From the IMG/VR virus record IMGVR_UViG_3300033233_000052, positions 1 through 51,867 of that record: a stretch of DNA of 51,867 bases. One strand, 5' to 3'. Under the pieces are notes generated by a model. It saw only the letters and a program-made list of their open reading frames with translations, ran no database searches and was not told where the DNA came from. Numbering within the stretch: the stretch's first letter is position 1; each line of letters starts with the position of its first letter. Source of the stretch: a virus. Positions 17,538 through 49,322 of this stretch are shown in pieces. Position numbers and translations under genes: made by a program.

Positions 17538-17770
17538 AATCGCGGCAATTGGTTGCGGAGGAAAGTGACCAGACCTTCTGGCGTCTTATATTTGCCCACT
17601 AAACCCATCCCCACACGGTAAACCAAATAATGGAACTGATGCTCACGATCCTCAGGCCTACTTGTGTACGTTTTTATCGCCTCTTTCTTGTAGAAGACCC
17701 TGTGATGCAAATCCTCCACCAACGCATTTGCTTCGCGCAAAAAAGACTCTTCCGTTCTAGGCGGCTTCAT
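17534..17770 (-). CDS. Hypothetical protein between sbcC- and sbcD-like genes
   Basis: 78 residues from the ATG with a GAGG site 8 bases upstream; an ATG four codons earlier lacks one. Helical, basic, with several aromatic residues (HYLVYRVGMGLVGKY). It overlaps both neighbours. No family recognised, but the position suggests a role with the SbcCD-like complex. Confidence 0.55.
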   Translation of the reverse strand: MKPPRTEESFLREANALVEDLHHRVFYKKEAIKTYTSRPEDREHQFHYLVYRVGMGLVGKYKTPEGLVTFLRNQLPRL

Positions 17771-18797
17771 TAAAGGCCTCAAGGAGTAGGTTAGCCCCCG
17801 CCTCCGTCACATCTTCTGATACCTTCGCCTCAGCACAATAAGTTAGGAACACGTCGTCCGGTGTCTTGCGCTGAACAGAGGTAACGGTTGGCGCCCCAAT
17901 CCGCGGCCTCTTAACCTGAACCCGTTCCAGTTCCAAGCCACACAGTTCCAGGCCAATATCCTTACACAAGGATTGAACCTGATCTTTTATCTTGCTCCAG
18001 TCCAAGTAGTCTGATGGGGCCAACTTCACCTTAAATTTTACCTGGTCACCCGCGTAGGCATCATCGCCTCCCTTAATCACCATTGAATCGTCGGACGGGT
18101 CGAGCGTGATGACCAGCCGCTGTATTGTTGGGAAGTGAATACTCTCCGCAGTGCCATAATCCTTGAGCAGAATCACACGGCCTTTGAATGCGTCGCCAAA
18201 GCGGACAGGATACGGCGCGCCGACGTACTCTACAGGGCCTACCTTTTGTGGCACGTGAACGTCACCACTATAAATCTTCGCCCGCATCGCATCACGCAGC
18301 AGAACCAAAGGGACACCACGCAGCTCAAAGTTATTCTCCCCACGGGCGCCATGAACTGTGGCGTGCATCATCACAACGTCCGCCTCCCTCAGCCCCACAT
18401 CCTTCCACGCGGTCTCAGGCTCCGTGGTATGCGGCAGCATCAAAATACGCTTGTCGCAGGCGGAGAAAAGAAATGGGGTAGCAACATACTCAACGCAGGG
18501 GAGGTGCTGGAGGAAACGGAAGAAGGGGCGGTCGGGGTCGATGCCGTCGTGATTCCCACGCAAGATATGGATCTTAAGGAGGCCCCCTTGCCGGTACAGC
18601 TTCAGCAAATTGTCCACGATCCGATTCACCAAACGGGAACTGTGTCTGTCCTTGGCCTCCGTCAAATCCCCGAGTATGTAAAGATCCTTTACGGCATGCT
18701 TAAGCAGGACGTCCACAAGCCACGGAAAGACGTCAAAACGATAGTCGTCCCGAGGGTTGTCGGTAAAATGGGTATCTGATAAAAGGATTGAGTTCAT
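17757..18797 (-). CDS. SbcD/Mre11-like nuclease
   Basis: 346 residues. The metallophosphoesterase motifs are in order: SDTHF (7-11), LGDLTE near 46, RGNHDG near 81, a His in MMHATVHG, and SGDVHVPQ. It resembles T4 gp47 and works with the SbcC-like ATPase as a nuclease on DNA ends. Near residue 296 the C-terminal region has KRPRIG, one of the recurring RP-x-I motifs. Overlaps the DUF1643 gene by 4 bases. Confidence 0.9.
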   Translation of the reverse strand: MNSILLSDTHFTDNPRDDYRFDVFPWLVDVLLKHAVKDLYILGDLTEAKDRHSSRLVNRIVDNLLKLYRQGGLLKIHILRGNHDGIDPDRPFFRFLQHLPCVEYVATPFLFSACDKRILMLPHTTEPETAWKDVGLREADVVMMHATVHGARGENNFELRGVPLVLLRDAMRAKIYSGDVHVPQKVGPVEYVGAPYPVRFGDAFKGRVILLKDYGTAESIHFPTIQRLVITLDPSDDSMVIKGGDDAYAGDQVKFKVKLAPSDYLDWSKIKDQVQSLCKDIGLELCGLELERVQVKRPRIGAPTVTSVQRKTPDDVFLTYCAEAKVSEDVTEAGANLLLEAFNEAA

Positions 18798-19309
18798 TCG
18801 ATTGGAAGCAGTTGAGAATTGCCCTTCAAATAAAGCGGATGAGCAGGTTGGCCACTCAACTTATTAATCTTAAGAGCCATTGGCTGTATGCGCCCTTGCG
18901 CTCGAATCAGTTGAAGCACTTCACTGGCTCTTCCAAATAACCCACCGTAATTTCCCCAAGCACAAACGATGATCCTCGAATCGTTACAGGCCTGCACAAT
19001 GTGCCGATTATTATCTGGCCCAACAAGGGCAACTTTAGGCAACTGACTGAGCGTCAATTCCGTCGGGTCAGTTGCGCGGTATGCGAACAAATTAACCACC
19101 TCAAGTCGCTCACACTCAAAACTGCGGGCGAAGGCTACGCAGCGACGAATGGTCGGGTCGTCATTCACTTCATCCGCAGTAGACGGATTCAACATAATGA
19201 AACAGCAGGCCCCTTCACCTACCCCAAAGAAAGACTCATGCTGCGGCCAGACATCTCGGACAAGTCGGTAGCGGTACTTTTGATCCTTGGAAATAATTGC
19301 GCTGTTCAT
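18794..19309 (-). CDS. DUF1643 family protein
   Basis: 171 residues. FIMLNPSTADEVNDDPTIRR near residue 38 is the defining motif of DUF1643, followed by the family's VVNLFAYRATDP segment and a CAWG motif. The family is common in phages and bacteria, and its biochemical function is not known. Position between a resolvase and SbcD suggests a nucleic-acid link. Coupled to both neighbours by ATGA overlaps. Confidence 0.8.
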   Translation of the reverse strand: MNSAIISKDQKYRYRLVRDVWPQHESFFGVGEGACCFIMLNPSTADEVNDDPTIRRCVAFARSFECERLEVVNLFAYRATDPTELTLSQLPKVALVGPDNNRHIVQACNDSRIIVCAWGNYGGLFGRASEVLQLIRAQGRIQPMALKINKLSGQPAHPLYLKGNSQLLPIE

Positions 19310-19815
19310 TTTCCAATCCGCGGCCGCTTAGTTGCTGGCGCTTTCGGCATCACATCAGCATAATACTTGGCCAGTAGCAAACTCTCCGCCCTATTGTGAT
19401 CCTTCTTTGCGTCAAGCGGCGCGTCAGGCCACATCCGCTGCGCGAGCTCACGGGACTGCTCTTTATCCTTCCCAAGAGCGTAGAACTTCTTCCACTTTTG
19501 AGGGCTCACTAAATGGACGCTGATGCCAAGCGTAGCCAGCACGCCAAGGATGATGCCGTAGCTCTTGCCCATTGCAAACATGGAAGCCACCCCTTGCCCG
19601 GGCATCGAGTTCACGTTCTCCGTAATCACTGGAACATCAAATCTTCCTTCGCAAATCTCCCGCAGCAGATTCGCAAAGGCAATAGGACTGACCATCCGGC
19701 GATTGCTCGACTTGTTAGCCAGGACTGTTGGTATATCAAGCACGCCAACAAAATGACCGCTGTTCGTCAGCACGCCAACCGCGCCGCTCACACCAGGGTC
19801 AATGCCGATGATCAC
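19306..19815 (-). CDS. RuvC-like Holliday junction resolvase
   Basis: 169 residues starting at a GTG preceded by GGGGGC. IIGIDPGVSGAVG gives the first catalytic Asp (residue 5). ITENVNSMPGQG gives the Glu, and DAKKDHNRAESLLLA carries the terminal His/Asp pair. RuvC-family nucleases resolve branched DNA before packaging. The protein ends TKRPRIGK, one of the RP-x-I motifs. A longer reading with a TTG start at 19857 is possible but has no ribosome binding site. Confidence 0.85.
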   Translation of the reverse strand: MIIGIDPGVSGAVGVLTNSGHFVGVLDIPTVLANKSSNRRMVSPIAFANLLREICEGRFDVPVITENVNSMPGQGVASMFAMGKSYGIILGVLATLGISVHLVSPQKWKKFYALGKDKEQSRELAQRMWPDAPLDAKKDHNRAESLLLAKYYADVMPKAPATKRPRIGK

Positions 19816-19906
19816 ATCAGCCCCCACTGAAAACCAGACCAAGCGTTTTCTTTCCAAATAGAATCAATGGGGCTGGTCGCTAAGTGCTTGATCTTCCCCT
19901 GCGACC

Positions 19907-20294: not shown

Positions 20295-20495
20295 TCATAC
20301 CAACTCCAGCTTCTCTGCAATCCAACGATCAACAACAATGTAACCATCATGCTGGTGAATCTCATTCACTGTGGAGAGGGGGAACCAAACTTCGCCTACT
20401 GTGTCTATCTCAACCAGGAGGGCGCGAACGGTCTCATGCTTCACTTCGCAGTCAATGCGGACGCCTTCACCACCCTCATTATTCTTCCGTGCCAT
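20295..20495 (-). CDS. Small hypothetical protein after recA-like gene
   Basis: 66 residues from the ATG preceded by GGAGGAAGT. Charged N-terminus (MARKNNEGGEG), then an alternating sheet-like pattern (VRIDCEVKHETVRALLVEI, GEVWFPLSTVNEI). Overlaps the end of the RecA-like gene by 17 bases. Function unknown. Confidence 0.6.
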   Translation of the reverse strand: MARKNNEGGEGVRIDCEVKHETVRALLVEIDTVGEVWFPLSTVNEIHQHDGYIVVDRWIAEKLELV

Positions 20496-21483
20496 ACTTC
20501 CTCCGCTCCGGCAAGAACGTTTTCTCAATACGGTACCACTCCCTGATCACCTGCTCACGCAAGTCACCTTGCGGCTTCTTCCCTATCTCTTCAAGGAAGG
20601 TAAGGGAGGCCATTTCATCCTCCACACCGTAGCCAAAAGTTAGCTGGAAATCACACTGCCGAAACGGTAGGCCTACCTTATTCTTCTCACACTTCGCACG
20701 GATAATTACAGCCACCGGCCGTTCCTGCTTGCTCACAGTGCGCTTGAGCTGTTTAATATACGTGAGCCAGATCACTTGAGATGCGTAGAAGTCCAACGCC
20801 TTGCCGCCGCTGCGCGTTGTCTTCTTTCCAAACGTGACACCAATGTTATCTCGCACCTGTGAAACGATCATTACCGCTATCAACTTCGCCCGCAGCTTGC
20901 GGACCAGGCGGCGGAACATTTCACTAAGGTTTTTGGCCTTAGCGGTGCCATAGGAGCCCTCCCCGATAGCCCTCGCCATCTCCGCGTCATCGGAGAGTGA
21001 ATCCAAGGAATCAATAATGTAAAGGATAGGTTCATCATCATCCGACGCCTTAATAAGCGCATCAAGATCTTTAAACAGATCCTCAATCGTATTCAAATCC
21101 TCCTCAACATCAATCTTGTCCATCGGAATGCCAAGCGCCGCAGCATACAGCGGATCAAACGCACTCTCACATTCCTTATACTTCACATGCCCGTTTGGAT
21201 ACTGCCGAAGGAAGTTTGCCGCCCCCTCCATCGCCAAGAGCGTCTTGCCCGTACTCTTGTCCCCCACTACGTTGGACACTCGTCCCACCGCCCACCCTCC
21301 CCCAAGGACACAATCCAAAAGCGTACAGCCAGAGGAAAAGAAAGGAATGTTCTCCTTAGGCGAAGCAAAGTAGAGCCCCCCACCAGAAGAAAGACCGCCC
21401 CCATCGGCCTCAACTTCAATCCGAGGACGACGGGGGCGGGAAGGTACCACGGCAGAAGAACTCTTTATATTAGGACGCTTCAC
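20479..21483 (-). CDS. RecA/UvsX-like recombinase
   Basis: 334 residues. Walker A GDKSTGKT is at 74-81 and Walker B ILYIIDSLDSL near 153, followed by the RecA-type sequence AKNLSEMFRRLVRKL and VSQVRDNIG, then the L2-like SGGKALDFYASQVIWL. It would form filaments for strand exchange and recombination-primed replication. The N-terminus carries MKRPNIK and, at 18-22, RRPRI, both of the recurring RP-x-I type and outside the core fold. Followed by a small gene and preceded by SSB. Confidence 0.9.
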   Translation of the reverse strand: MKRPNIKSSSAVVPSRPRRPRIEVEADGGGLSSGGGLYFASPKENIPFFSSGCTLLDCVLGGGWAVGRVSNVVGDKSTGKTLLAMEGAANFLRQYPNGHVKYKECESAFDPLYAAALGIPMDKIDVEEDLNTIEDLFKDLDALIKASDDDEPILYIIDSLDSLSDDAEMARAIGEGSYGTAKAKNLSEMFRRLVRKLRAKLIAVMIVSQVRDNIGVTFGKKTTRSGGKALDFYASQVIWLTYIKQLKRTVSKQERPVAVIIRAKCEKNKVGLPFRQCDFQLTFGYGVEDEMASLTFLEEIGKKPQGDLREQVIREWYRIEKTFLPERRKYGTEE

Positions 21484-21492
21484 GGCGGCGGC

Positions 21493-22614
21493 TTACTTCT
21501 TTTTGCCGAGCGCCGCAAGCCGTTCCTTCAACGAACTCCCTTTCCCGGAGGTAGCCGCCGCTGCGGGCTCCGGCTCAGAAGGGATATCATCGGTTATCCC
21601 CAAAGCTTCGCACAGCCAATCCTGGTAAGCCTCGAGGGTGTCAAAGGAAGTGTCACCCGAATCAGCGCTGTACTGCTCGGCAAGACTGGCGGCGGTGTCC
21701 ACGTCCATCTCATGCACTTCCTCCCACGTTGGCAACTGGGGCTCTTCCTCTTTGGGCTTCGCTGCCGCAGCGCCGCCAATACGCGGCCTGCCTGCGGTCT
21801 TGGCTGGTGCTGGATCTTCCTTCTTCGCTGGCTTGGCTGCGGTCTTTGCGGCAGGCTTCCGTTCTTCCTCCGCCGGCGCCGATGACTTGCCCTCGTAGGC
21901 CGCCTTCATGTGATCGTAATCGTGATACACAAGGATGCTGGGTAGCGGGTTTTCCGTGATGAACTGGAGCCAGGCCATCGCCACGTCGTCGTCGTCCGAA
22001 ATGGGAGAGGACTTCCGCGCTATCTTTATTCCCGTATACTGCTTCTTCTGGCCAGTTCCTTCCACGGTGAAGGAAACATCGAAGCCGTCGTCCGGGTTAT
22101 CCAGCGGGACCACCTCGCCGGTGTCAGGATCGAATGCCTGGGCGCACACCTCCTTATCGAAGTTGGACCACGGAGATGCCCACGCTTTGGGGCCGTCGCC
22201 TTCCTGCGCCCGCTCGATCAAATAGATCAGCACCCGCTTCGTGGGGTTCAAGGCCTTGGCCAGTTCCGGATCGTTCGCGTTGTTCGCCTCCGCCCGCGCT
22301 TCACACAACGGGCAGGCCTCGCCACGCATCTTGGCCAAGCACAGATAACCTGCGTTGTCCGGGCCAATGCCATAATGCACGAACACCTCGAGGCCGAAAT
22401 GCTCCGCGTCCTCCCACGTCGGCGGGCAGATCCGCAACTTGTGGTCAGCAGCCTTGGGGTTGAACAGCTTCACGTTACCGTCGATGAACGTATCGCGCCC
22501 TGTGCCCGTCTGCGCCGTCCGCTTCTTCACCTCCTCCGCCGTACGCGGGCGGTAGTTGAACTCAAACTTCTTCTTCGCCGGTTTGCCAATTGCTGGTCTT
22601 GCTACGGTACCCAT
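21493..22614 (-). CDS. Single-stranded DNA-binding protein, T4 gp32-like
   Basis: 373 residues from the second in-frame ATG, which is 7 bases after GGAG. A zinc-binding set HYG...GYLCLAKM...ACPLC (His 80, Cys 92, 101, 104) matches gp32-type SSBs. An Ala/Lys/Pro/Glu-rich linker (about 240-290) leads to an acidic region and a short basic end (SLKERLAALGKKK), unlike the acidic tip of most SSBs. RP-x-I motifs occur at ARPAIGK (residues 5-11) and GRPRIGG in the linker. It would coat single strands at the fork and act with the RecA-like protein. Confidence 0.8.
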   Translation of the reverse strand: MGTVARPAIGKPAKKKFEFNYRPRTAEEVKKRTAQTGTGRDTFIDGNVKLFNPKAADHKLRICPPTWEDAEHFGLEVFVHYGIGPDNAGYLCLAKMRGEACPLCEARAEANNANDPELAKALNPTKRVLIYLIERAQEGDGPKAWASPWSNFDKEVCAQAFDPDTGEVVPLDNPDDGFDVSFTVEGTGQKKQYTGIKIARKSSPISDDDDVAMAWLQFITENPLPSILVYHDYDHMKAAYEGKSSAPAEEERKPAAKTAAKPAKKEDPAPAKTAGRPRIGGAAAAKPKEEEPQLPTWEEVHEMDVDTAASLAEQYSADSGDTSFDTLEAYQDWLCEALGITDDIPSEPEPAAAATSGKGSSLKERLAALGKKK

Positions 22615-22781
22615 CTGCATTCTCCTTCTACGTGGTAAAAACTACTATAGGGTGGGGTGGACTATCCCTTGGTGAGAAACCTCACGCTGGCCGTTCATTC
22701 CCCGCTTTCCAGTTCCAAGCATACCTTCCGATATGCGGGAATCCGTGCGTAGTGTCCGGCAGTTGGTGTCCACCCCGTTGG

Positions 22782-23300
22782 TCAGTTCTTCCGATCTCTA
22801 CTCATTGCTGCCCTCGCCACCGCAGCCTGGCCGGCGGTCAAGTCCTTCTCCCCCTTTGCTTTCACTGCCGCTGTATAGTAGCCGGCCTGATACAGATTGC
22901 AAAGGTACCGAATAGCATAGCCACGCTGCGAAAACGCCTCCTGCAACGCGAACAGGACACCGGCCCGCTTCGTACGTTTCATGTAGATGTCATAGGCCAT
23001 GACATGCTTCATATCTTTGGCCACGAAATCCCGGATCATGCTCTCATTGGCCTTTTCGCTGCTCTGCCGATACTCAACACCACAAGCCGCATCCTGCCGA
23101 GCCATTGCCTCCTTCGCCTCGTCCTTCAACGACAGCGCCAGAGCATACTCCTGCGACACCTGAAAATACAGGTCGGCCTGCTGTTGCAACGCATCGTCCA
23201 AAGCGTTCTTGTCGATGGCCAGGTAACCTCGGTACTCCGCTACAAACGAATCCTGCGTTTCAGGCAGCGGAGCAACCTCTCTGATAGTAGGGCGTGCCAT
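22782..23300 (-). CDS. Helical phage protein, possible recombination mediator
   Basis: 172 residues, almost all helical, with a coiled-coil-like middle (YLAIDKNALDDALQQQADLY, EEYALAL-type heptads) and a final LYQAGYYTA segment. This family recurs between SSB and clamp-loader genes in phages. A UvsY-like mediator role is an inference from position. It starts MARPTIREV, a copy of the RP-x-I motif. Its ATG overlaps the stop of the clamp-loader gene. The 167 bases downstream (22615-22781) show no convincing gene. Confidence 0.55.
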   Translation of the reverse strand: MARPTIREVAPLPETQDSFVAEYRGYLAIDKNALDDALQQQADLYFQVSQEYALALSLKDEAKEAMARQDAACGVEYRQSSEKANESMIRDFVAKDMKHVMAYDIYMKRTKRAGVLFALQEAFSQRGYAIRYLCNLYQAGYYTAAVKAKGEKDLTAGQAAVARAAMSRDRKN

Positions 23301-25345
23301 TACTCTTCTCCTCCAAAAATTACGGACCCAACGGCCAGGTACAGCGGCGCGTTCTTCTCACTAGCATTGTAAAACGGACTGCTGAAAGCGCCAAGCGTAC
23401 GGAGCAGGCGGACCACTTCTTTGTCACCCTTGGCCTTGGCCAATATAGCTGTGATGTAATTCACAATTACCAGCCGCACGCTCTCTGGATTTACCCCTGC
23501 AAGAGCATCTATTTTCCGCGTCGCTTCGGCCCATGTGCGGCCCTGCGAGCTGACCAGGAAACGGGCGAGGTCTATCGCTTCCACATTCTCGAGAGCTGTT
23601 TCGAGGATCTGCTGTATCTGCTTTTCGTCCTCAAGACCATCTACCATGGAGAGATATTGCAACGCCTGCCGAACGCTACCGTCCGCCTTCCGCGCGATCA
23701 TGCCACAGCATTTATCTGTGGCTACGATCCCTTCCAGTTTGGCAATCTGCTCAAGGTACTCCGCGATCACCTCCCACTGCACCCCTTTGAGGTCGTAGGT
23801 GTGACAGCGAGTGCGGATAGTATCCGGAACCTTGTTTGCCTCTGTGGTGCAAAATGCCCAAAAAACATGATCCGGTGGCTCCTCAATCGACTTGAGCAAG
23901 GATTGCCACGTGGCCTTGGAAAGGGAATGACAATTATGTACTATCAACCCTTCAACAGCATAGGACGGGTGCCCTTCGATTTCAAGATCAATAAATTCCG
24001 CATACTCAATACCGTCGAAAATATCCGTTTGAATACCGCTGTCTCGGATTGCCTCACTTCCTCGTTCAATACTCGTAACACTCGCCATCCTAAGCTGGCC
24101 AGCCTCTGATCTTTCTTCTGGTCTAAAGCCTTCACTCGCGGATTTTGATGCCCTCTCCCATCCACCTCTACAGCCAACTTGATCTTGGGCAATGCTAAAT
24201 CCACCTTGTAATTGGAGGGCCAACCGTCCTCCCCAGGAGAACGCCCTGTATGGATTACAAACTCCAGTTCGCAGCGTAAAAGCCGCTGAAGGGTGAGCTG
24301 CTCTGAGGTGTGCTGGCCATTTCCACCCCTCTTCCCCTTCCATATATGAAGAGAACCCTTTGCCTCCTTTGTGGCCCGCATTTTCTCGAAAACTCCAGGC
24401 ATCCGCGACGGGTTGTTTCTCTTCATCCTCTCGGAACAATCCTTGGCTACCTGTTTCCAAATTTCCGGATTCTCTACTTTTGATCGTTCTACCCCTTCTT
24501 TTACACTTTGTTTTACTTCTTCCGATCGAGGATGAGCTCGCTTCCTCCCCGCTGCAATATTGCCACACTCCCGTGAACAATGCTTTGACCATGACCAATA
24601 CTTCTTCCCACATTCCGGACAAGTATTGGCTCGGCGTTCTTTCTGACACACCAAACAGTAAGTAGTTCCTGGCAAACGACTCACAAAAATCTCTTTGCAT
24701 CTCCGGCAAATGTGCTGGTAATCTGTCTCGAACTTTGCATATTGATTTGACATGGTCAAGTTCTCCCGCAGGTACCCATCCTTCTGGAGTTAGAAATAAA
24801 TGGTCCCGTGAGCAAATAATACTTTTTCCATCTGCCAAACGCAAGCGGATAATCCGTGTCAATGCAACCTTGTTCCTAAATACAGTCCTGACCTGTCGAA
24901 CCCCTTTCAATCCGATAACGAAATCGCCCACTCGAATATCTTTTATGGTCACAAGCCCGGTTGGGGTATTCACCAAAGTATCTGGCGCGAAGCATTCATC
25001 TATGATCACAAATCTTGTCGGCTGTTCACCAAGAGCTTGGTACTGCACCATGCTCGTAACCTGCCGCATATCGTCCACACCGCTATTCGTCGCTGCATCA
25101 ATCTCAAGGATGCCCTCTTCCGCCCCCACGATCTTCGCAATGATCCGCGCAATCGTTGTCTTCCCCGTGCCCGAGGGCCCCGTGAGGAGATATGCGTGCG
25201 GGGTATGCTGCTGAAGCACTGAAGCCAACGACGCCAGCACCGCCTCCTGCCCCAGTACCTCAGTCAAATCCTGGGGGCGATATTTGATGTGCAACGGCCT
25301 GTCATCACGCTTCACTTCTTCCTTCTTAATGCTGGGTCTAGCCAT
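23300..25345 (-). CDS. dnaX: Clamp loader large subunit (DnaX-like) containing an intein
   Basis: 681 codons from the ATG giving MARPSIKKEE; a longer frame to 25396 overlaps the polymerase end and is less likely. The loader parts are 1-117 and the last ~210 residues. They show YRPQDLTEVLGQE, Walker A GPSGTGKTT (56-64), Walker B VIIDE interrupted exactly after DE, then CHSLSKATWQSLLKSIEEPP (the CH-L and SIEEPP segments) and TIRTRCHTY (sensor 1 and Arg finger region). Removing the 354-residue intein leaves about 327 residues, a normal phage clamp loader. The N-terminal MARPSIKK is an RP-x-I motif. It loads the sliding clamp encoded nearby. Confidence 0.9.
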   Translation of the reverse strand: MARPSIKKEEVKRDDRPLHIKYRPQDLTEVLGQEAVLASLASVLQQHTPHAYLLTGPSGTGKTTIARIIAKIVGAEEGILEIDAATNSGVDDMRQVTSMVQYQALGEQPTRFVIIDECFAPDTLVNTPTGLVTIKDIRVGDFVIGLKGVRQVRTVFRNKVALTRIIRLRLADGKSIICSRDHLFLTPEGWVPAGELDHVKSICKVRDRLPAHLPEMQRDFCESFARNYLLFGVSERTPSQYLSGMWEEVLVMVKALFTGVWQYCSGEEASSSSIGRSKTKCKRRGRTIKSRESGNLETGSQGLFREDEEKQPVADAWSFRENAGHKGGKGFSSYMEGEEGWKWPAHLRAAHPSAAFTLRTGVCNPYRAFSWGGRLALQLQGGFSIAQDQVGCRGGWERASKSASEGFRPEERSEAGQLRMASVTSIERGSEAIRDSGIQTDIFDGIEYAEFIDLEIEGHPSYAVEGLIVHNCHSLSKATWQSLLKSIEEPPDHVFWAFCTTEANKVPDTIRTRCHTYDLKGVQWEVIAEYLEQIAKLEGIVATDKCCGMIARKADGSVRQALQYLSMVDGLEDEKQIQQILETALENVEAIDLARFLVSSQGRTWAEATRKIDALAGVNPESVRLVIVNYITAILAKAKGDKEVVRLLRTLGAFSSPFYNASEKNAPLYLAVGSVIFGGEE
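23933..24994 (-). mobile_element. Intein in the clamp loader Walker B site
   Basis: 354 codons from Cys (CFAPDTLVNT, block A) to His-Asn (HPSYAVEGLIVHN, blocks F and G), followed by the +1 Cys of CHSLSK. Block B is visible as DGKSIICSRDHLFLTPEGW. Both splice ends are in frame with the exteins and there is no stop between them. The middle ~270 codons of this frame look like noise, because that DNA encodes an endonuclease in another frame. Insertion into the conserved DE-C-H motif of an ATPase is a typical intein site. Confidence 0.85.
23944..24753 (-). CDS. EDxHD (Vsr-like) homing endonuclease nested out of frame in the intein
   Basis: 269 residues in the +1 frame relative to the clamp loader, with its own ATG and a GGGAG site 9 bases upstream. 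The N-terminus has two or three zinc-finger-like Cys clusters (ICRRCKEIF, YCLVCQ, TCPECGKKY, HCSRECG). A basic helical middle contains a NUMOD-like KMRATKEAKG segment. The C-terminal nuclease has VDLALPKIKLAVEVDGRGH, KDQRLASLGWRVLRVLNEEV, the pattern of very-short-patch-repair-like EDxHD homing enzymes. It begins just after intein block B and ends inside block F. It would promote spread of the intein. Confidence 0.8.
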   Translation of the reverse strand: MSNQYAKFETDYQHICRRCKEIFVSRLPGTTYCLVCQKERRANTCPECGKKYWSWSKHCSRECGNIAAGRKRAHPRSEEVKQSVKEGVERSKVENPEIWKQVAKDCSERMKRNNPSRMPGVFEKMRATKEAKGSLHIWKGKRGGNGQHTSEQLTLQRLLRCELEFVIHTGRSPGEDGWPSNYKVDLALPKIKLAVEVDGRGHQNPRVKALDQKKDQRLASLGWRVLRVLNEEVRQSETAVFKRIFSTVLSMRNLLILKSKGTRPMLLKG

Positions 25346-27962
25346 TTTCTTTCTCCTTGTACCACAATAGCCAATCTGCGTTATCCTGGGAGCCAAACTT
25401 GGCCACCTCCTCTAATGCTCCCCAAGTCTCCCCAATGGCCAATTCTATCACAATGGGAACCGAAATGAAATCGTACCGGCAGTCACACATCTTGTTCGCG
25501 ATGAACTCAATATCCTCTTCTGCTGTTTTCTTCGGCAAATAAAAGGTCAAGTCATCATGCACGTTCAAAATGGGCTGGTACTGCGGCTTGTCCATTTCAT
25601 ACGAACAGAGTGTCAGCTCATCCATCTTATCCAACACCACGTGCGCCGCAGTACCTTGGATCGGGGTATTGGTCAGCTCATTCATCGAGCAGGGACCGTA
25701 CCGCCGCCATCCAAAAAGCGTTTCACAGTAGCCGGTCTTGATGTAGTTCGTTTTAACCTGCTGCTGCCACGTTCGTACCTCAGGGTAGGCACCCCAAAAC
25801 TCCTCCCCGATCTCCTGCGCCACTTCCACAGGCACTCGCAGCATGGCAGCGCATGCCTCCGGCACAGAGCCGTAGAAGCTGGCAAACACCCAGTTATTCT
25901 TAATCTCATTGCGGCCAGTTTTGAATATCAGCTTCTTGTCCTTCGGATCAACCTCAAACTCCTCAATCAGGTAATCTTTCCACCCTGGGGCCTTATCCAA
26001 AAACCGTTGCGTCCAATACGCATGAATATCAAGGCCACCCCACAATTCTTTCTGTAAGCGCTTCGCCTTCGCAGCCATCGCTAAAATACGTGCCTCAATC
26101 TGGCCGTAATCAAGAGAGGCAATGATACAATCCTCAGGTGAGCAAATGATGTTACGGATCTCCCGATTCTTTCGCTTAGGCCAGTTCTGGGCGTTTGGAT
26201 CCTCTGAAGCAAGCCGAGTAGTAATCGTCACAAGATGATTAAAGTTGCTGTGGATCAAACCGTCCGCATAAAGACGGTTTCCAGTGGGAAGATACGGCGC
26301 GACGAACGTCCCCAACAGTTTCTGATTAGAGCGGACGATCAGGGTGCCCTGTGCAGCGGGATGATCTATTTTAACTAGGACCTCTTCCTCCGTACTGTAC
26401 TTCTTCCCCACCAGCATCTGGTCCTTGTACCCCAACTCAATCAATAAATCTTTCACATCCGTCGGGGAGGTGGGCTTGAACTTCTTCTGCCGCTTCTGCT
26501 CCCACGCTTTCACATTTCCGTTCGTCGCAATCTTCGCTTCCGCTGCGGCCATATCCGCGGCAAGGGACTTGCTCAACTGCACGATCATCGCAGTATTGGG
26601 CACCAGCCCCTTCGCCTGCGTCCTGACCATACTGCGAGTTCGCCCCATGAGGAATTCATAGACGTGCATCAAGCCTCGTTCCTGAAGCTCTGCCTCCTGA
26701 ATCAACGAAGCTGCGTGAGTGTATTTGGTATCCCCCCCGTTGTACCGCAACACCTGCTCAAGTGGATACTCGTCCACCCGCGTACGGTCCACGTCACTAA
26801 ACTTTTTCAGCAGGAACCCAAACAACCGCAAACAGACGTCGTCCAACGAATTGATCCGCCTCTCCTCCTTTATCCCTTGCCGAGCGAACAGAGCGTGAGC
26901 CTGAGCCATTGTGTCACCCCACTCGGTCTCAAACAGGAGGTCCTCACCATAGAAATATGACAACCACTCCTGCTCAAACTTCGCGCTGTGACACCACTTC
27001 TTCCCGCTTCCCAACAGGTACTCACGGATGACTTCATCCAGCTGCTTCAGCTGCGGCTCTGTCCACTTCACTTCCCGATGCCGGACAGGGATGGAAACAG
27101 TGTTTTCATAAGTGCCCACAGCAATGGAAAGGATCTTCGCCCCCTTGGCATAGGGGCGCAAACCGTTCGTTTCAATATCCAAACCGTGTGGCCCAACCCC
27201 CACTTCCGCAAGAGCATCAGCAACGTCATCCACTTTCCAACTTGTAATGGACCGGATATTGTGAAATACTGTTTTGGTATCCTCCGGGGAAGGCTGAACA
27301 TAATGCTCGAGGAAATCAAACGCCGCCTGCAACTCACGGGAAAAGAAACGGACCCACTCCTCCCCTTTCTTCTTATCATGCCGCACTCGCGCAACGTACT
27401 CAGGATGTAGCAAGGGGAAGTACCACACCGCGTGCCCACCGATTCGTAGCGGTAACTTCCGACCATGCCAATTCATAATCCCACTCACACCGGTCAGCAA
27501 CTTGAGTGGAATGCCGCCAAAACCAAGGACAATCTTGGGCTTGCTCGCCGCAATGTCATCCTCTTGCAACTTAGAACAGCAAGCCAACTCCAGATCCGTT
27601 GGCGCTCGATCACTTCCATCGGTAACTGGCCTACAACGTACAGAATTATTCCACCGAATACGCTTCAACCATTTTGATGGAATGAACCCACGCAAAAACT
27701 TCCCGCCATCGCTGCTGAATTGAACCCCAGCATTATCATCATCCCAAACTGGGGCCTCACCAAGAATATAAATCAGTGGGTGAGGAGCATCCCCTGTGGG
27801 CAGCATCTTCGGGTGCCGCAGCACAATCTTGTCCAACGGACAGTTGCGGCAGGAAAGAGTCGTAGTGGAGAGGAGCGAAAGCTGCCGCGAGGGCGCGGTA
27901 ACCGCCCTCTCCTCCGAGGAATAAAAGAAGCCCACAGGATTATTTGCTTGTGCCGATACCAC
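25338..27962 (-). CDS. Fusion of uracil-DNA glycosylase-like domain and family A DNA polymerase
   Basis: 874 residues. Residues 35-215 look like a family 4/5 uracil-DNA glycosylase: Cys ligands for an iron-sulphur cluster at 38, 41, 110 and 128/129, GEAPVWDDDNAG at 68-79 and a terminal HPEYVAR. Next comes a 3'-5' exonuclease (GLDIETNGL near 262, KFEQEWL). The rest is polymerase: motif A SLDYGQIEARIL, the O-helix RNEIKNNWVFASFYG and motif C NVHDDL. Such a fusion could read template uracil or repair it at the fork. The GTG start at 27962 overlaps the clamp gene and has no good ribosome binding site, so the start is uncertain by some residues. Confidence 0.85.
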   Translation of the reverse strand: MVSAQANNPVGFFYSSEERAVTAPSRQLSLLSTTTLSCRNCPLDKIVLRHPKMLPTGDAPHPLIYILGEAPVWDDDNAGVQFSSDGGKFLRGFIPSKWLKRIRWNNSVRCRPVTDGSDRAPTDLELACCSKLQEDDIAASKPKIVLGFGGIPLKLLTGVSGIMNWHGRKLPLRIGGHAVWYFPLLHPEYVARVRHDKKKGEEWVRFFSRELQAAFDFLEHYVQPSPEDTKTVFHNIRSITSWKVDDVADALAEVGVGPHGLDIETNGLRPYAKGAKILSIAVGTYENTVSIPVRHREVKWTEPQLKQLDEVIREYLLGSGKKWCHSAKFEQEWLSYFYGEDLLFETEWGDTMAQAHALFARQGIKEERRINSLDDVCLRLFGFLLKKFSDVDRTRVDEYPLEQVLRYNGGDTKYTHAASLIQEAELQERGLMHVYEFLMGRTRSMVRTQAKGLVPNTAMIVQLSKSLAADMAAAEAKIATNGNVKAWEQKRQKKFKPTSPTDVKDLLIELGYKDQMLVGKKYSTEEEVLVKIDHPAAQGTLIVRSNQKLLGTFVAPYLPTGNRLYADGLIHSNFNHLVTITTRLASEDPNAQNWPKRKNREIRNIICSPEDCIIASLDYGQIEARILAMAAKAKRLQKELWGGLDIHAYWTQRFLDKAPGWKDYLIEEFEVDPKDKKLIFKTGRNEIKNNWVFASFYGSVPEACAAMLRVPVEVAQEIGEEFWGAYPEVRTWQQQVKTNYIKTGYCETLFGWRRYGPCSMNELTNTPIQGTAAHVVLDKMDELTLCSYEMDKPQYQPILNVHDDLTFYLPKKTAEEDIEFIANKMCDCRYDFISVPIVIELAIGETWGALEEVAKFGSQDNADWLLWYKEKENG

Positions 27963-28986
27963 TAATCACGTGGACAAAGGAATCGCTGCGCAGGCAAATT
28001 GAGCGCTCTGTCACCCCCATCTCCGTTGCCAACGACAGCACCCGCCGGAGCATCTCCGCATTCACCACCACCTTGGCCTGCGGCACCTTCGCAGATATTG
28101 CCAGGTTGGTGCCAGCCTTCCCAAGAGCTGTTTCAGTATTAATGCTCAACGTCTTGTCGTTCACCGACAGCGTGGTGTTCTTTTCCGCGGACTTGTTCAG
28201 GATCACACAATTCCGCTCGATGACCCGCTCGAGGTCCGCCGGCACGTCAAAGCCAGCATACCCTTCACTGTGCTGGCTGATCACCGCCTCGAAGTCCGTC
28301 CCTTTGAACTCCATCAACCGTGCAATCACAAAGATGGGCGGCGTAGTGGCAAAAGAGAAAATGGCCGTCGTACCGCTCATGCCCAGGGACGGTGCTTCTT
28401 CCGTCAACTTGGCCAAGTTCAACGCCTGCTCCACAGCAGGCTTGGGGAGGACAGCGCGGGCATTGATGTTTTTCGGCTCACCCACCGTATAGCGCGACAG
28501 CGATATGTTGTCCGTGCTGTAGAAAAGGGCTCCAGGGCCCCTTCCGTGCATGATCGTAATGCCAATAAACTCGGGACGGCGCGGGTCGCGTCCAACAGTG
28601 ACAGAGCAGCGGGAAAGCGCTTCCTTGAACGTATCGTCGAGCGGGGTCTCCCAACTTGAGGCATCGTCGGGGAATTTGAACAGAAACTCCTTCTCTGACA
28701 ACATAGGGAGGTCCGTATCACCGGTATCCGTTTTGATTGTAAGGGTAAGGCCCTTCTGCACCAACTCCACTTCCTCCCCGCACGTCCCGAGGATGCCAAG
28801 CAGCGTATCACCTTTCACCGCGCCCTTAATCCCGGTCTCGAGGGCCACGATCACCGCGCTCACGTCATCGTAGGCGTGCACGGTATCGCCAGCGAAACAG
28901 AAGTGGCTGAGAATAGGGATAAAATCCACCCCCACAAGAGAGGTCTTTGCTGCATTAAGAACAAACAATAGGTCTGCTGTTTTCAC
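27940..28986 (-). CDS. Sliding clamp (DnaN-like)
   Basis: 348 residues without catalytic motifs and with the repeated sheet-helix pattern of three-domain beta clamps. N-terminal KTADLLFVLNAAKTSL and the GITIMHGRGPGALFYSTDNISLSRY segment (a clamp-typical L-x-x-TDG-like strand) support this, as does the location beside the polymerase and clamp-loader genes. It would tether the polymerase to DNA. It is a plausible partner for the recurring RP-x-I motifs. Overlaps the polymerase gene by 23 bases. Confidence 0.65.
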   Translation of the reverse strand: MKTADLLFVLNAAKTSLVGVDFIPILSHFCFAGDTVHAYDDVSAVIVALETGIKGAVKGDTLLGILGTCGEEVELVQKGLTLTIKTDTGDTDLPMLSEKEFLFKFPDDASSWETPLDDTFKEALSRCSVTVGRDPRRPEFIGITIMHGRGPGALFYSTDNISLSRYTVGEPKNINARAVLPKPAVEQALNLAKLTEEAPSLGMSGTTAIFSFATTPPIFVIARLMEFKGTDFEAVISQHSEGYAGFDVPADLERVIERNCVILNKSAEKNTTLSVNDKTLSINTETALGKAGTNLAISAKVPQAKVVVNAEMLRRVLSLATEMGVTERSICLRSDSFVHVISGIGTSK

Positions 28987-31258: not shown

Positions 31259-31261
31259 GGT

Positions 31262-34703: not shown

Positions 34704-36327
34704 CACGCCTCCCCTCACAAATGGCCTTAAACAAGTCGCGCCCCTCTTCGATGAACCCCCACACTTTTTCATCCACTGTGCCCACCGCCTCAAGCAGGTA
34801 TCGGTACACCCTCCGCTTCTGCCCTGTGCGATACACCCGCTTCCACGCTTGCCAAAATTCGGAGGTGCTTGGCGGCAGCTCATAAAAGATCACAAAGCGG
34901 GAGACGTTCTGCAGCTCATCAATCCCTGTTCCTCCGCTTTCCGTGTTCGCCACGAGCACACTGCACCCAGGGTCATTAAGAAAACGATTGTAATGGTCAA
35001 TCGGCCGCTTCACCCCTCCCCGCAGCACCGCATAATTTTTCACGCCAAGCTCTGCAAGCGCAAGCTCAATCAGCTGGCCGGTGAAACGGTAGTAATGGAA
35101 TATGACCACCTTTGTGTCGATCGGCACAGACTCAAGGAGTGACAGCAACGCCTCGAGCTTGGGGTTATCCTCAAATACATACTCCGCCTTTTCTCCCTCG
35201 TCCGATTTCAAGCCCATGAACCCTGCTGTGATCTGTCGCGTGCGGTGGAAGAAACTGTCAGTCAGCCGAAAGTCGCCTCGAGACTGCGTGAGCGCTTCAA
35301 CGGCCTTGTTATAGTAAAGCTTCTGCTCCGCGGTCAGCTCAATGGGGATCACGTTTGAGACCACGTCCGGCAGATCCTGTACCTCAGCGTCCTCATACCG
35401 GATGCTCCGATGCTGGATGATCCGATGAACGTCCTTCTCCATTGAGGAGTCAAAGCGCCAGTCAATACCCCCAAAATGATTCACTCCACCTTTGTAAAAG
35501 GCCTGGCGGAAAAGAGACATTGTGGGGCCTAACGTCTCCCCATCATCCACCACCTTAAACTGCGACCATGCCTTCAACGGGTCACGCCCAAATAGTGTTC
35601 CAGTCCCACCGAACCGAACCATGCACTGCTTGGCCACGCGGGATGTGAGTCGATGGACAAGGGAGTCTTGGGAGCCCAGCATCTTGTGGCTCTCGTCCAG
35701 TATTAGACCACCGTTGGCAAATCGTTTCACGAATTTATTGACCTTGGATTGGACCGGAAACCGCTTCTGCTTGTTCTTTTTTCCTGTGCCAAACTCCGTC
35801 ATATACACCATGAGCCCAGCGTAGTTCATTATAAGCAGGTCAGCGTCAGTTTCAATCAACTGCTCACGATCCTCCGCACTGCCCAACAGCTTCGCGTAGG
35901 TGAGGTTCGGCGCGTGGATCTTAATCTGCTTCGTCCAACTTTCCACGTTCACCGCCCGTGGAACAAGAATAAGAGAGCGGCCTAACCCACGCTCCGCTTT
36001 ATAGTACCGCAGCAAGGCCAACCATATAGCCGACTTCCCCAATCCCATGTCAAGCAAATGGAGGAACTGCGGATAGGCAATGCCTAACGCGATGCTCACA
36101 AGCTGGTGCTGGAAAGGCTCTTTCTCAAACTGGTCCCAATCCGGATACACCAGGTCTTCCAACTCTTTCCGCTTCAGCCCCTTCATCCATGTGTGGCTCT
36201 CACGGGGCCGGTCAATGAACTCCTGCACCACCTTCGGAGAGATCAGGCAGTGGGCAAAAATCGCCTCCGCCTTTTTACGGCGTGAGAATGTTTGGCCGCT
36301 TTTTAGCGACCGGCCCTTGATTAGCAT
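34681..36327 (-). CDS. SNF2-type superfamily 2 helicase
   Basis: 548 residues. Motif I is HLLDMGLGKSAIW, motif II GGLILDESHK, motif III FGGTGTLFG, motif V ANTESGGTGIDEL and motif VI QAWKRVYRTGQKR, all in SNF2 order. Related proteins accompany phage DnaB and primase genes and are thought to remodel or unwind DNA at origins and forks. Its exact role is unknown. It overlaps the DnaB-like gene by 53 bases. Confidence 0.85.
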   Translation of the reverse strand: MLIKGRSLKSGQTFSRRKKAEAIFAHCLISPKVVQEFIDRPRESHTWMKGLKRKELEDLVYPDWDQFEKEPFQHQLVSIALGIAYPQFLHLLDMGLGKSAIWLALLRYYKAERGLGRSLILVPRAVNVESWTKQIKIHAPNLTYAKLLGSAEDREQLIETDADLLIMNYAGLMVYMTEFGTGKKNKQKRFPVQSKVNKFVKRFANGGLILDESHKMLGSQDSLVHRLTSRVAKQCMVRFGGTGTLFGRDPLKAWSQFKVVDDGETLGPTMSLFRQAFYKGGVNHFGGIDWRFDSSMEKDVHRIIQHRSIRYEDAEVQDLPDVVSNVIPIELTAEQKLYYNKAVEALTQSRGDFRLTDSFFHRTRQITAGFMGLKSDEGEKAEYVFEDNPKLEALLSLLESVPIDTKVVIFHYYRFTGQLIELALAELGVKNYAVLRGGVKRPIDHYNRFLNDPGCSVLVANTESGGTGIDELQNVSRFVIFYELPPSTSEFWQAWKRVYRTGQKRRVYRYLLEAVGTVDEKVWGFIEEGRDLFKAICEGRRDAQLRKI

Positions 36328-39236: not shown

Positions 39237-40136
39237 TCACGTATCTACTTGAAAAGTATCAGGAGCAACCTCCCCTCCCTTACCATACAGCTTCCGCATA
39301 AATACCCGCTGATCTTTATCTTGCTTCTCCTTCTTTTTCTTTAACGCGGCTTTCTGCTTCTGCTCAAAATCCTCCCCCAACTTAGGAGCATCCAAAACAT
39401 CACGGAAACCCAACGTGATATGAGTTACTTTACGCTTATCAAACCCACGCTTACGAGGAGTCAACACTACGTTAAAACTGGTATGTTCTCGAACAACCTT
39501 GGCTGCCCGCTGCATCAACATCCAAGTATCATTCCAGCTTGATTCTTCAGGCGTACGCAAATAAACTTTCAACCAATCTACTTCAAAGGTGCATCTTGAT
39601 TCATTTAACTTTCGGCAAAAACTAGCAAGAATGAATAACTGTGCCGCCCGGGCACTCTGCAACCGCTTAAACTCCTCAATACCAATCAAAGTGAAATTTT
39701 CATTTCTCAAATTGAGAAGCAACTCTTTCAACTTCTCATTCAATTCAAAATAAACCACTTCCTCCTGCTCATCCCAAAAAGCGTATCGAATAGGCCAAAC
39801 TACAGCTATCCCAATCTTACCGTCTGGCCCCTCCTCAAAATCAGGAATTACTAAAGATGCCCCATCCCCCACATTACGGATAACATCAAGAACCGCGCGC
39901 TTATTTCGCCAGGTAGAAAAACCAGCAAGATGCATAAGGCCTTTCAACGAAACCTTAAACCGTCCAAAGTTTTTATCTGTTTGCGGCAGAGCTAAAAGCC
40001 CCATAAGAACTCGATGCTGCGGCAAAGTCATCCTCTTCTCCGCAAGAGCATAACGGTTGTTTACTTGAATCTTTTCCTTAGCTGGCGCGGTAATAACCTC
40101 AGCTGGGAACAAACTTTTAATAATAGGTCTGCTCAT
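39237..40136 (-). CDS. rep: Rep_3-type replication initiator
   Basis: 299 residues. NNRYALAEKRMTLPQHRVLMGLLAL at 27-51 and the second unit with EKLKELLLNLRNENFTLIGIEEFKRLQSARAAQLFILASF are the tandem winged-helix pattern of plasmid Rep_3 initiators. Plasmid relatives bind iterons and melt the adjacent AT-rich DNA. Five iterons and an AT-rich stretch lie directly upstream. It begins MSRPIIKSLF, an RP-x-I motif. A GGAGGG site precedes the ATG and a TTGACA promoter lies 30 bases further. Confidence 0.8.
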   Translation of the reverse strand: MSRPIIKSLFPAEVITAPAKEKIQVNNRYALAEKRMTLPQHRVLMGLLALPQTDKNFGRFKVSLKGLMHLAGFSTWRNKRAVLDVIRNVGDGASLVIPDFEEGPDGKIGIAVVWPIRYAFWDEQEEVVYFELNEKLKELLLNLRNENFTLIGIEEFKRLQSARAAQLFILASFCRKLNESRCTFEVDWLKVYLRTPEESSWNDTWMLMQRAAKVVREHTSFNVVLTPRKRGFDKRKVTHITLGFRDVLDAPKLGEDFEQKQKAALKKKKEKQDKDQRVFMRKLYGKGGEVAPDTFQVDT

Positions 40137-48170: not shown

Positions 48171-48365
48171 TCAGTAGTCCGGGCTTTCGCCCTCATAGAA
48201 ATCACGCTCAGGTAACTCATCAGCATAGCGTTCGCGCCGTGCTTGATTTCGCCGGACCGCTTTTGGATCAGGCTGCATCCAGTAACCCCCGCCAGTGCCA
48301 TCGGCATACCAACAGGCTTGATTAGTTTTGTTCGCCTCGCGCTGGATCTGTTTTTTCGTTTGCAT
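48171..48365 (-). CDS. Small hypothetical protein
   Basis: 64 residues, very polar with many Arg, Gln, Glu and Asp (KKQIQREANKTNQ, RRNQARRERYADELPERD). Probably helical and disordered in part. Function unknown. Confidence 0.45.
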   Translation of the reverse strand: MQTKKQIQREANKTNQACWYADGTGGGYWMQPDPKAVRRNQARRERYADELPERDFYEGESPDY

Positions 48366-48475
48366 AATAATGATTTCCTTATCTTAGTTATGGTGTCTCA
48401 GAAGGCCCACCAGCAACCAGCCACCCCCACAAATGAGGAGGGCCGGTTGAGTTAGGTCCTCTCACAACCACGCCG

Positions 48476-48712
48476 TTAGGCGGCGGCTGCAATCGGGTTG
48501 GCTTGGAAGTCCCGCGTCCAGTTGCGGGCGGTGTTGACGTGGACTTTGAACTTCTTCGCCAGTTCCGCTTGCAGCGCCTGGGCGTCCTTGCGGATGTTGG
48601 CCGGCTGGCGCACGAAAGCGTGGGCCTTCGCTGCCTTGCTTTCGCCGTAGTGCTTGATGCCGGTCACTTTTTTCGTTGCCAGTTTGGTACCTGCTTTTAC
48701 TTTCTTGGTCAT
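48476..48712 (-). CDS. Small basic protein
   Basis: 78 residues with a Lys-rich start (TKKVKAGTKLATKKVTG) and a C-terminal helix pair AKKFKVHVNTARNWTRDF that looks like a helix-turn-helix recognition segment. It may bind DNA. The CATAACTAGGAGAAT leader precedes the ATG. Confidence 0.55.
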   Translation of the reverse strand: MTKKVKAGTKLATKKVTGIKHYGESKAAKAHAFVRQPANIRKDAQALQAELAKKFKVHVNTARNWTRDFQANPIAAAA

Positions 48713-48791
48713 GTCATTCTCCTAGTTATGCTGCCGCGAAAACGGTCAGCCCATTGCACCCTGTTACGGATGCAAGGTGGCTCACTGCGCT

Positions 48792-49322
48792 TTAGCCGGT
48801 ATGGCCATTCTTGATCCACTTGCCCGCAGTGCTGAGGGGTATCTCCACCAGCTCTGCGAGTTCCTTTGCCAGGTCAGCAATCATTGCCACGCTGCCATCG
48901 TGCGTATGCTTGGCAATGAAATCCGCTGCCTTCCCACGCTTCGTCCCGCTCTTGGGTGCTTTGCTGGGAGCCTTAGCTGGCGACGCAGCGACAGGGGCTG
49001 TCGTTGGCTTCGTCGCAGCTTCCGCCTTGGCATACTTCTGCGCAATCGCTAGAGCCCCGTTACCCACGGCGTCCATCCGCTCCACGAACTCCTTGGGAAG
49101 GTAGCTGTTATGGCTGCGTGGCGTGTACTTGGGTATCTTACCCTCCAACTCTTTATGCCTTGTGGCCATTGCAAGCCGCTCCTCAATAGTGAGGTCCTGT
49201 GGCCGTACCCCCTTCGCTGCAAACAGGAAGGAATATGGACTATTGGCGATCGGCACCTCTTCCAGCCGCAGCGGCGCAGGTGGGGCCGGTGGCTGGTTTT
49301 TAATCTTCGGACGTTTGGTGGC
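48792..49322 (-). CDS. Protein with RP-x-I start and C-terminal helix-turn-helix-like end
   Basis: 176 residues from the ATG giving MATKRPKIKNQ, an RP-x-I motif; the longer frame has no ribosome binding site. A Pro-rich stretch follows. The middle IEERLAMATRHKELEGKIPKY is helical, then an Ala/Pro/Lys linker and a last domain with AKELAELVEIPLSTAGKWIKNG, similar to the end of the upstream small basic protein. DNA binding is likely but unproven. Confidence 0.55.
   Translation of the reverse strand, partial: ATKRPKIKNQPPAPPAPLRLEEVPIANSPYSFLFAAKGVRPQDLTIEERLAMATRHKELEGKIPKYTPRSHNSYLPKEFVERMDAVGNGALAIAQKYAKAEAATKPTTAPVAASPAKAPSKAPKSGTKRGKAADFIAKHTHDGSVAMIADLAKELAELVEIPLSTAGKWIKNGHTG

Follow-up and report, generated by a model that had tools for sequence, protein, structure and literature searches.

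In the 51.9-kb virus record IMGVR_UViG_3300033233_000052 (the window, meaning the whole stretch analysed), nine proteins of DNA replication and recombination carry eleven copies of a short peptide of the form RP-x-I, all on the minus strand. Comparison of the sequences of related phages leads us to read it as this phage's own spelling of a broader, lineage-coded tag. The peptides were located by six-frame translation, which recovered every one of the eleven instances and nine carriers that a first-pass annotation had named. That annotation had also placed them at termini or in linkers, which holds for the nine copies near a protein end and for one in a linker of the single-stranded DNA-binding protein (SSB); the remaining copy lies instead in a loop of the SbcD-like protein, about 50 residues before its C-terminus. 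Together the carriers resemble a T4-like recombination and replication machine, comprising RecA/UvsX, a 172-residue protein (p172), SSB, SbcD, a resolvase, a clamp loader, a helicase and an initiator. We somewhat favour the view that the tag is a docking motif for one shared partner; this was the annotation's proposal and is the reading that survives best, with the amendment that literal RPxI is one dialect of the tag rather than the motif itself.

A count against shuffled proteomes, which the annotation had suggested, came out in favour of the motif. The 64 called proteins of the window hold 12 matches to RP.I against 2.26 ± 1.5 in within-protein shuffles, none of 5000 of which reached 12 (maximum 9). 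Near a protein end there were 10 matches (counted within 30 residues) against 0.63 in shuffles (counted within 30 and 34 residues), with a maximum of 5 in 5000. Among all patterns of three fixed residues lying at most 22 residues from an end, RP.I ranked first (nine proteins against 0.7 expected, score 7.2; null maxima over 40 shuffles averaged 3.6, the largest being 5.9), and over whole proteins it ranked fourth by matches, behind LE.V, DL.G and ANL., and third by number of proteins. Above 15.6 kb we counted 11 matches in 11,014 residues and below it 1 in 4,060, a contrast between replication and head genes that runs in the expected direction and is weak taken alone. Terminal RP.I was found in no protein of the T4 (86 proteins), lambda (77), 9g (73), MAR10 (53) and ZHS (52) stretches, the last two (Vibrio phage MAR10 and Edwardsiella phage ZHS) being the GenBank phages most closely related by tblastn of SSB and similar to the window in gene order; it was found in one protein of N4 (54 proteins) and in zero to two of each of ten relatives. 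In ZHS and in a Mardecavirus the peptides equivalent to the tag are harder to make out. Other terminal patterns that exceeded the null maximum were EQ.T in relative L068, IH.H in L022 and MLD. in L051.

The codons encoding RP-x-I vary among the eleven sites, so that it is the peptide and not a DNA word that is conserved; a DNA-level motif or copied stretch was rejected as an explanation because synonymous codons differ. That gene conversion, or the duplication of a short stretch of coding DNA, spread copies of such peptides within a phage therefore seems very improbable to us. Such copying would suit the RVRIK shared by the nuclease and SbcD of L054, where four of five codons are identical, and the two tagged methyltransferases of L051, which are close paralogues, but synonymous differences occur at the window sites and at least once in every tag set compared in ten relatives, and the RLEDE of L070, shared by its RecA (RVRLEDE) and SbcD (RFRLEDE), differs between the two genes in four of five codons.

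Relatives were collected from IMG/VR in two sets. The first came from a RecA-alignment scan, taking the best 80 of 505 loci; with the window and earlier loci, 61 were left after removal of RecA redundancy at 80% similarity. The hold-out came from two more scans (the best 80 of 212 and the best 80 of 380) and comprises 50 phages with a RecA of under 80% similarity to those already collected; pattern and pairings had been fixed beforehand. A scan of bacterial and archaeal genomes found six relatives, which belong to neither set, and one with the polymerase as query gave none. We defined the general tag as [RK]x[RK][ILV] or [RK]Px[ILV]. The RecA N-terminus, otherwise poorly conserved in the relatives, mostly bears this form (43 of 59 against 11.0 shuffled in the first set, 31 of 46 against 6.9 in the hold-out), with spellings such as MARPRIGK (L013), MDRPKLKR (L003), MKKPKIKG (L068), MIARVKIDK (L054), MAKRGKLKR (L028) and MKRERIRR (L019). 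First-set counts also exceeded shuffles in the SbcD loop (25/41 against 10.8), the C-terminus of a PDDEXK/RusA-like nuclease (15/42 against 5.8) and the N-terminus of the clamp loader DnaX (6/29 against 2.1), and in both sets the C-termini of p172 (22/50 against 9.9, then 16/41 against 7.4) and of SSB (26/59 against 10.6, then 16/45 against 7.5) were rich in the tag. Control slots of the first set stood at or below expectation, namely the C-termini of SbcC (1/35), DnaN (0/40), SbcD (3/46) and RecA (1/61) and a mid-nuclease segment (0/42), as did the DnaN C-terminus of the hold-out (0/23). On a tree of RecA cores the spelling with P changes six times, at least four of them on supported branches, and so did not originate once.

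The spelling is shared within a phage. We scored the best five-residue BLOSUM62 match between two nonhomologous segments, testing within-phage pairs against permutations of the pairing and against shuffled segments, and found that the SbcD loop, the PDDEXK/RusA-like nuclease and the p172 C-terminus match the phage's own RecA N-terminus. For the SbcD loop, whose orthologues in the relatives resemble the RecA N-terminus of their own phage, the permutation gave P=0.0016 in the first set and P=0.0002 in the hold-out (n=26), with shuffle z of 5.1 and 5.4; for the nuclease C-terminus the values were P=0.037 and 0.0002 (n=27), and for the p172 C-terminus P=0.018 and 0.001 (n=38). Further first-set matches joined RecA to the p172 N-terminus (P=0.0015), and the nuclease to the SbcD loop (P=0.0012), the DnaX N-terminus (P=0.002) and the p172 N-terminus (P=0.02). 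Controls for RecA (mid-nuclease, the C-termini of SbcC, DnaN, SbcD and RecA, and another SbcD stretch) gave 0.34 to 0.99 in the first set, and four of them (SbcC, DnaN and RecA C-termini, mid-nuclease) 0.43 to 0.94 in the hold-out; those for the SbcD loop (SbcC, DnaN and RecA C-termini) gave 0.44 to 0.78, and DnaN against the SbcD loop P=0.55 in the hold-out. Exchanging partners between closest relatives lowered the match of RecA with the p172 N-terminus (P=0.006), p172 C-terminus (0.017) and SSB C-terminus (0.045) and that of nuclease with SbcD (0.022), and lowered none of six controls.

Searching with each phage's own RecA five-residue peptide gave 59 terminal matches in 55 phages (60 found, minus the RecA of L022 itself) against 20.4 shuffled and 32.7 with the peptides of other phages. 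Over eleven phages of the P dialect, L060 among them though left out of the later tree and mini-domain counts, 21 of 204 other proteins had a terminal [RK]P.[ILV], compared with 30 of 797 (P=0.0096, or 0.040 once the window is removed), and several of the matches listed look like noise. Own-dialect matches were not in excess in DnaN (8/34, cross 8.3), SbcC (12/32, cross 14.0) or primase (1/5). An own-dialect excess in DpdA (10/17 against 4.4) was set aside, being partly a conserved core RPxV, as in GRPRVRL of L068.

Hand-picked examples give a sense of these dialects, which in some relatives extend to the small terminase, DNA methyltransferases and DpdA. L078 writes AKPKIKG in RecA, SKPRIK at the very end of its nuclease, GKPKIQT in the SbcD loop, MKPKIRT in its small terminase and KKPRIDI in DpdA. 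In L068 the RecA reads KKPKIKG, SSB KRPTVGK near its N-terminus, the nuclease TKPKVRKK at its last residues, p172 MKLKIGK and DnaX MVLKLKIK. L051 has KRPKLNLK in RecA, PPQKLNFRS in the nuclease, KP[IT]KLSFWK in the two paralogous methyltransferases (one Pfam-tested), and both KPRLNFK and KPKLHFK in an unknown protein. Two proteins of L022 that read as N6/N4 methyltransferases carry MTRPKLH (Pfam-confirmed) and MAMRPRLN, and the small terminases of L078, L013 and L011 have tags like those of their own phage. Unknown proteins with several copies of their own phage's tag and no Pfam or PHROG match lie at L068 7959-8504 (L090) and L051 13167-13703 (L092); these are possible scaffolds.

A number of results weigh against a general tag of this kind and against its sharing. 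Literal RP.I is not conserved in orthologues, the loss that the first-pass annotation had said would count against it, although the general tag did not share this fate; it is nevertheless missing from the RecA N-terminus in 16 of 59 first-set and 15 of 46 hold-out phages. The p172 N-terminus is unenriched (3/43 against 2.3, and 1/28 in the hold-out), and hold-out counts were above expectation and nonsignificant for the SbcD loop (11/29, P=0.083), the nuclease (7/30, P=0.21) and DnaX (2/16, P=0.18). The enrichment at the p172 and SSB C-termini may come from conserved helices. Unbiased motif discovery singled out the dialect in none of ten relatives taken alone. Among pairings, the hold-out failed for RecA with the p172 N-terminus (P=0.70) and with DnaX (0.59), and nuclease with SbcD loop fell to P=0.07. 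In the first set, RecA gave P=0.14 with DnaX and 0.30 with the SSB C-terminus, and the SbcD loop 0.52 with the p172 N-terminus, 0.79 with the p172 C-terminus, 0.17 with DnaX and 0.056 with the SSB C-terminus; against shuffled segments RecA-nuclease reached 0.079 and nuclease-DnaX 0.059, and one control, mid-nuclease against the SbcD loop, was positive (P=0.029). The partner exchange was nonsignificant for RecA-SbcD (0.13), RecA-nuclease (0.44) and RecA-DnaX (0.29). The general pattern, moreover, was formulated after the first set had been seen, which together with the slot and pair tests that failed in the hold-out is what would be expected if basic, disordered ends merely yield similar four-residue strings and the pattern was chosen post hoc. 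We consider this account by chance and composition improbable, as shuffles that keep composition fall short of the RecA counts and the hold-out confirmed the RecA slot and the pairing of RecA with SbcD, with the nuclease and with the p172 C-terminus.

In the window, the RecA/UvsX-like recombinase (gene 20479-21483; RecA PF00154, E=2.1e-35) carries RPNIK at its N-terminus (21463..21477) and a second copy, RPRIE (21415..21429), in the same disordered region; its model has no secondary structure over residues 1-47 and a predicted local distance difference test (pLDDT) score of 58-69 over residues 1-40. SSB (gene 21493-22620; phrog_1192) has a core that Foldseek matches to the RB69 gp32 core (E=5.9e-8, TMt 0.61). 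It bears RPAIG at its N-terminus (22585..22599) and RPRIG (21775..21789) in a linker of pLDDT 42-45 that precedes an acidic helical mini-domain (residues about 291-341, pLDDT 81-96); the SSB of L003 has GRPKLGK at the position aligned with this linker tag. The mini-domain, a three-helix unit present once in the window and twice in L016 and L051, looks SAP- or LEM-like. In many relatives (as at L025:8036-9418 and L045:8659-9885) the SSB tail is a long tandem array of acidic blocks interspersed with KP-led basic clusters, an arrangement that could promote condensates.

The p172 gene (22782-23300) opens with RPTIR (23280..23294). Nine of 41 family members match the UvsY-like phrog_231 (best 1.4e-5), and the window's own p172 does not; hhalign aligned it colinearly with T4 UvsY, but with a probability of 3% (P=0.015), no UvsY appeared among its PDB matches, and no Pfam family was common to the family members. 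By these family matches p172 is probably a UvsY-like recombination mediator. The clamp loader (DnaX, gene 23300-25345), which contains an intein (Hint and Intein_splicing matches), has RPSIK at its N-terminus (25325..25339). The SbcD-like protein (gene 17757-18797; SbcD phrog_100, E=5.6e-28) has RPRIG in its internal loop (17895..17909), and the RuvC-like resolvase (gene 19306-19857; phrog_1770 Holliday junction resolvase, E=9.6e-30) ends in RPRIG (19312..19326), followed by K and the stop codon. The DnaB-like helicase (gene 36275-37720; PF03796, E=1.1e-7) ends in RPNIL (36284..36298) followed by TP, and the DnaB ends of L068 and L051 are without a tag. RPIIK (40116..40130) is at the N-terminus of the Rep initiator (gene 39237-40136; PF01051 Rep3_N, E=7.2e-11) and RPKIK (49299..49313) at that of an unknown early protein (gene 48792-49325; weak phrog_13305 match only), given 176 residues by the annotation, which found its tag correctly, and 177 by its ATG at 49325. 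Rep and this early protein have no orthologue among the relatives' loci; found in 1, 1, 4 and 10 loci respectively, Rep, the 177-residue protein, RuvC and DnaB are too few for orthologue tests. Purine-rich, Shine-Dalgarno-like stretches lie upstream of the SSB, p172, clamp loader and Rep starts, so the tags there are probably genuinely N-terminal; RecA starts with GTG and has a weaker site of this kind.

The first-pass statement that no copy occurs in head genes proved inexact, also on the minus strand. A 90-residue packaging-region protein (gene 9887-10159, no PHROG match) ends in RPMIR (9893..9907) followed by K and the stop codon, a possible further copy that may be chance, and the probable small terminase (gene 13287-13748, or from ATG 13739; phrog_641, E=0.0011) has the I-to-L variant RPRLQ (13695..13709) near its N-terminus, in keeping with the tagged small terminases of relatives. 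The 90-residue protein shares an N-terminus, MAW[ST][ED]AARAAAAExRR, with two other small packaging-region proteins of that strand (6172-6537 and 12963-13280), and 'MAW.' occurs in 5 called proteins of the window against 0.69 expected.

Disorder in two models, few fixed residues, gain and loss of client proteins and joint drift within each genome are marks of a short linear motif. The tag would start with a basic residue, commonly with P or V after it, continue with any residue or a basic one and close with I, L or V, and would be displayed on disordered ends or loops of DNA-processing proteins. If all tagged proteins of a phage dock into one groove of a single partner, drift of that groove would carry the spelling of every tagged protein with it; joint drift of this kind is the effect expected of a common receptor. 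We infer from this both the single partner and that the match serves binding.

Peptides that dock onto a hub are already known; what is new here is a spelling that changes phage by phage and is common to the recombinase, the nuclease complex, a resolvase-like nuclease and sometimes modification and packaging proteins. The first-pass annotation knew of no described motif of this form, and a full-text literature search, partly aimed elsewhere and with most subscription papers outside its reach, likewise turned up no account of such a tag, or of any lineage-coded docking peptide on phage recombination enzymes and in places on methyltransferases and the small terminase; close kinds do exist, in the RecA-NT motif and the LAST motif of gp32. 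In BRC/FxxA systems, partners of RAD51 mimic the recombinase's own polymerisation peptide. The tag differs from these in that F[TH][TG]A was absent from all tag sites tested, as was the SSB-Ct form.

Given a docking tag with a shared partner, the phage's own RecA core is our tentative candidate, possible while still short of an even chance. RecA would bind a neighbouring RecA through the tag on its disordered N-terminus, and SbcD, the nuclease, the UvsY-like mediator, SSB, DnaX and others would mimic that N-terminus to reach filament ends. The model is the RecA-NT motif of bacterial UmuC, ImuB and further Y-family polymerases: in the accounts of PMC6511836 and PMC11791113, UmuC and ImuB imitate the N-terminus of RecA and thereby bind RecA or ImuA'. 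For two other phage recombinases, a passage of PMC12890299 attributes oligomerisation to the N-terminus. No other carrier is as constant as the RecA N-terminus, and none serves as well as a reference for the rest; with the RecA-NT precedent this makes RecA the likeliest single partner. The likeness lies in the SbcD loop and the nuclease and p172 C-termini, which resemble their own RecA N-terminus in both sets, the partner exchange supporting only the p172 and SSB ends. Where those accounts of RecA-NT (PMC6511836, PMC11791113) describe an alpha-helix plus beta-strand, 28 residues long in ImuB and placed in polymerase tails, the phage tag is a basic five-residue peptide for which no helix is predicted in RecA; it sits on several enzymes unrelated to one another and is spelled phage by phage. 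Several points weigh against RecA. Its tag region has no RecA-NT-like helix and is disordered in the monomer model. Covariation of the dialect with nine candidate proteins singled out no hub (DnaX, at P=0.020 among the nine, fails correction), and we know of no reason for small terminases, DNA methyltransferases, DpdA or Rep to bind RecA. Judged by pLDDT, neither AlphaFold model, of RecA or of SSB, shows docking in cis.

The gp32-fold SSB shares the docking-tag part of this reading, as does the sliding clamp below. We think it rather unlikely that tags bind an acidic SSB surface on single-stranded DNA, with SSB's own N-terminal and linker tags competing with them, rather as the LAST motif of T4 gp32 binds the core of a neighbouring protein. 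The fold is gp32-like by Foldseek, several tagged clients are usual SSB partners, and the mini-domain behind the linker tag is more frequent in phages of the P dialect (7/9 against 7/50, P=0.0003). In the section of PMC12424627 on LAST, this basic N-terminal motif of T4 gp32 is thought to bind the acidic core surface of a neighbour; the tag near the SSB N-terminus of the window and L068 occupies the same place, and like LAST is short and basic on a gp32-fold protein. There LAST is KRKST, with S/T and no conserved aliphatic residue, and is not described as a tag of other T4 proteins, and the window SSB start MQMGTVARPAIGKPAKKK, basic and N-terminal, is not KRKST-like. The mini-domain association is, however, clade-confounded, with only four independent pairs, and L022, L034, L054 and L011 have dialect tags and no mini-domain, which weakens the mini-domain as a necessary receptor. 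The linker tag at pLDDT 42-45 gives no docking in cis, and the match of RecA with the SSB C-terminus fails by permutation even though the partner exchange lowers it.

Consensus clamp-binding and PCNA-interacting protein (PIP) motifs read Q[LMI][SDNGT]L[FL], Q..[LMI].[FL] and Q..[ILMV]..[FYW][FYW], and as with the tag a single short motif is found on many replication and repair proteins, which dock onto one hub. The window's DnaN-type sliding clamp (27940..28986, minus strand; phrog_947, E=2.3e-29; beta-clamp family by profile) lacks RP.I and was a hub offered by the annotation, one that drew no support from motif contexts, tag counts or covariation. That a diverged clamp groove gathers the loader, nucleases, methyltransferases and terminase on phage DNA is in our judgement unlikely. 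In its favour count the presence of DnaN in 51 loci (RecA, 83), its membership of the beta-clamp family, its strong divergence (28% mean column identity), its lack of tag excess (0/40 and 0/23 C-termini; own/cross 0.97), the tagged methyltransferases and small terminases of some relatives, and L051 tags KLSFW and QKLNF that resemble clamp motifs by eye. Yet the pentapeptide, hexapeptide and PIP patterns fit none of 12 window tag contexts, 107 RecA N-termini, 70 SbcD loops or 72 nuclease ends; RecA, SSB and UvsY are not usual clamp clients; the dialect does not covary with DnaN (partial r 0.044, P=0.26); and a canonical QLSLL lies close to the N-terminus of the window's polymerase, even if that family is unenriched (3/46 against 1.9). 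That protein (25338-27962) is a family A DNA polymerase with an N-terminal uracil-DNA-glycosylase domain and QLSLL at residue 27; the pentapeptide is near the polymerase N-terminus in L051 too, and occurs in 4 of 42 PDDEXK/RusA-like nucleases of relatives (0.4 expected) and 4 of 35 SbcC (1.6 expected).

Alternatively the tags could need no protein partner, being short basic DNA-binding arms suited to the phage's DNA and possibly its modified bases, hence alike within a phage; this we rate as quite unlikely, below the clamp. Carriers of known function do act on DNA, the tags are basic and disordered in both models made, and, like AT-hooks, they are short basic peptides containing RP on DNA-acting proteins, one window SSB copy having an AT-hook-like GRP core with a basic residue nearby. 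Unlike AT-hooks, they conserve an aliphatic position and show no RGRP at any tag site tested (including the same RecA N-termini, loops and nuclease ends), with a GRP core and basic neighbour in one RecA N-terminus, and residue order is matched beyond composition, as the RecA-SbcD shuffles indicate.

Returning to a docking tag with one partner, a bolder version, which we put forward as speculation and think less likely than not, is that each phage marks many of its DNA enzymes with a private address code some five residues long; this code would co-evolve with one receptor at the replication site and could keep the machineries of co-infecting phages apart. Its carriers would range from initiator, helicase, loader, SSB, recombinase and nucleases to DNA-modifying enzymes and the small terminase. 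Such separation would be a new form of replication insulation, and a RecA partner would make the tag a phage counterpart of BRC and RecA-NT mimicry; docking peptides for clamp, SSB and RecA already organise replication and repair in cells. The tag also gives a sequence handle for new members of phage replisomes, for example the multi-copy proteins of L068 and L051, and a simple test of how the T4-like recombination machine assembles.

Elsewhere in the window, genes at 29211-32568 and 37727-38455 read like DpdA, a glycosyltransferase, QueD, FolE and QueE, some with annotated equivalents in ZHS, and their sequences suggest that this phage may have 7-deazaguanine DNA. A pentapeptide-repeat-like protein with AxLxG repeats lies amid the replication genes at 44631-45197.

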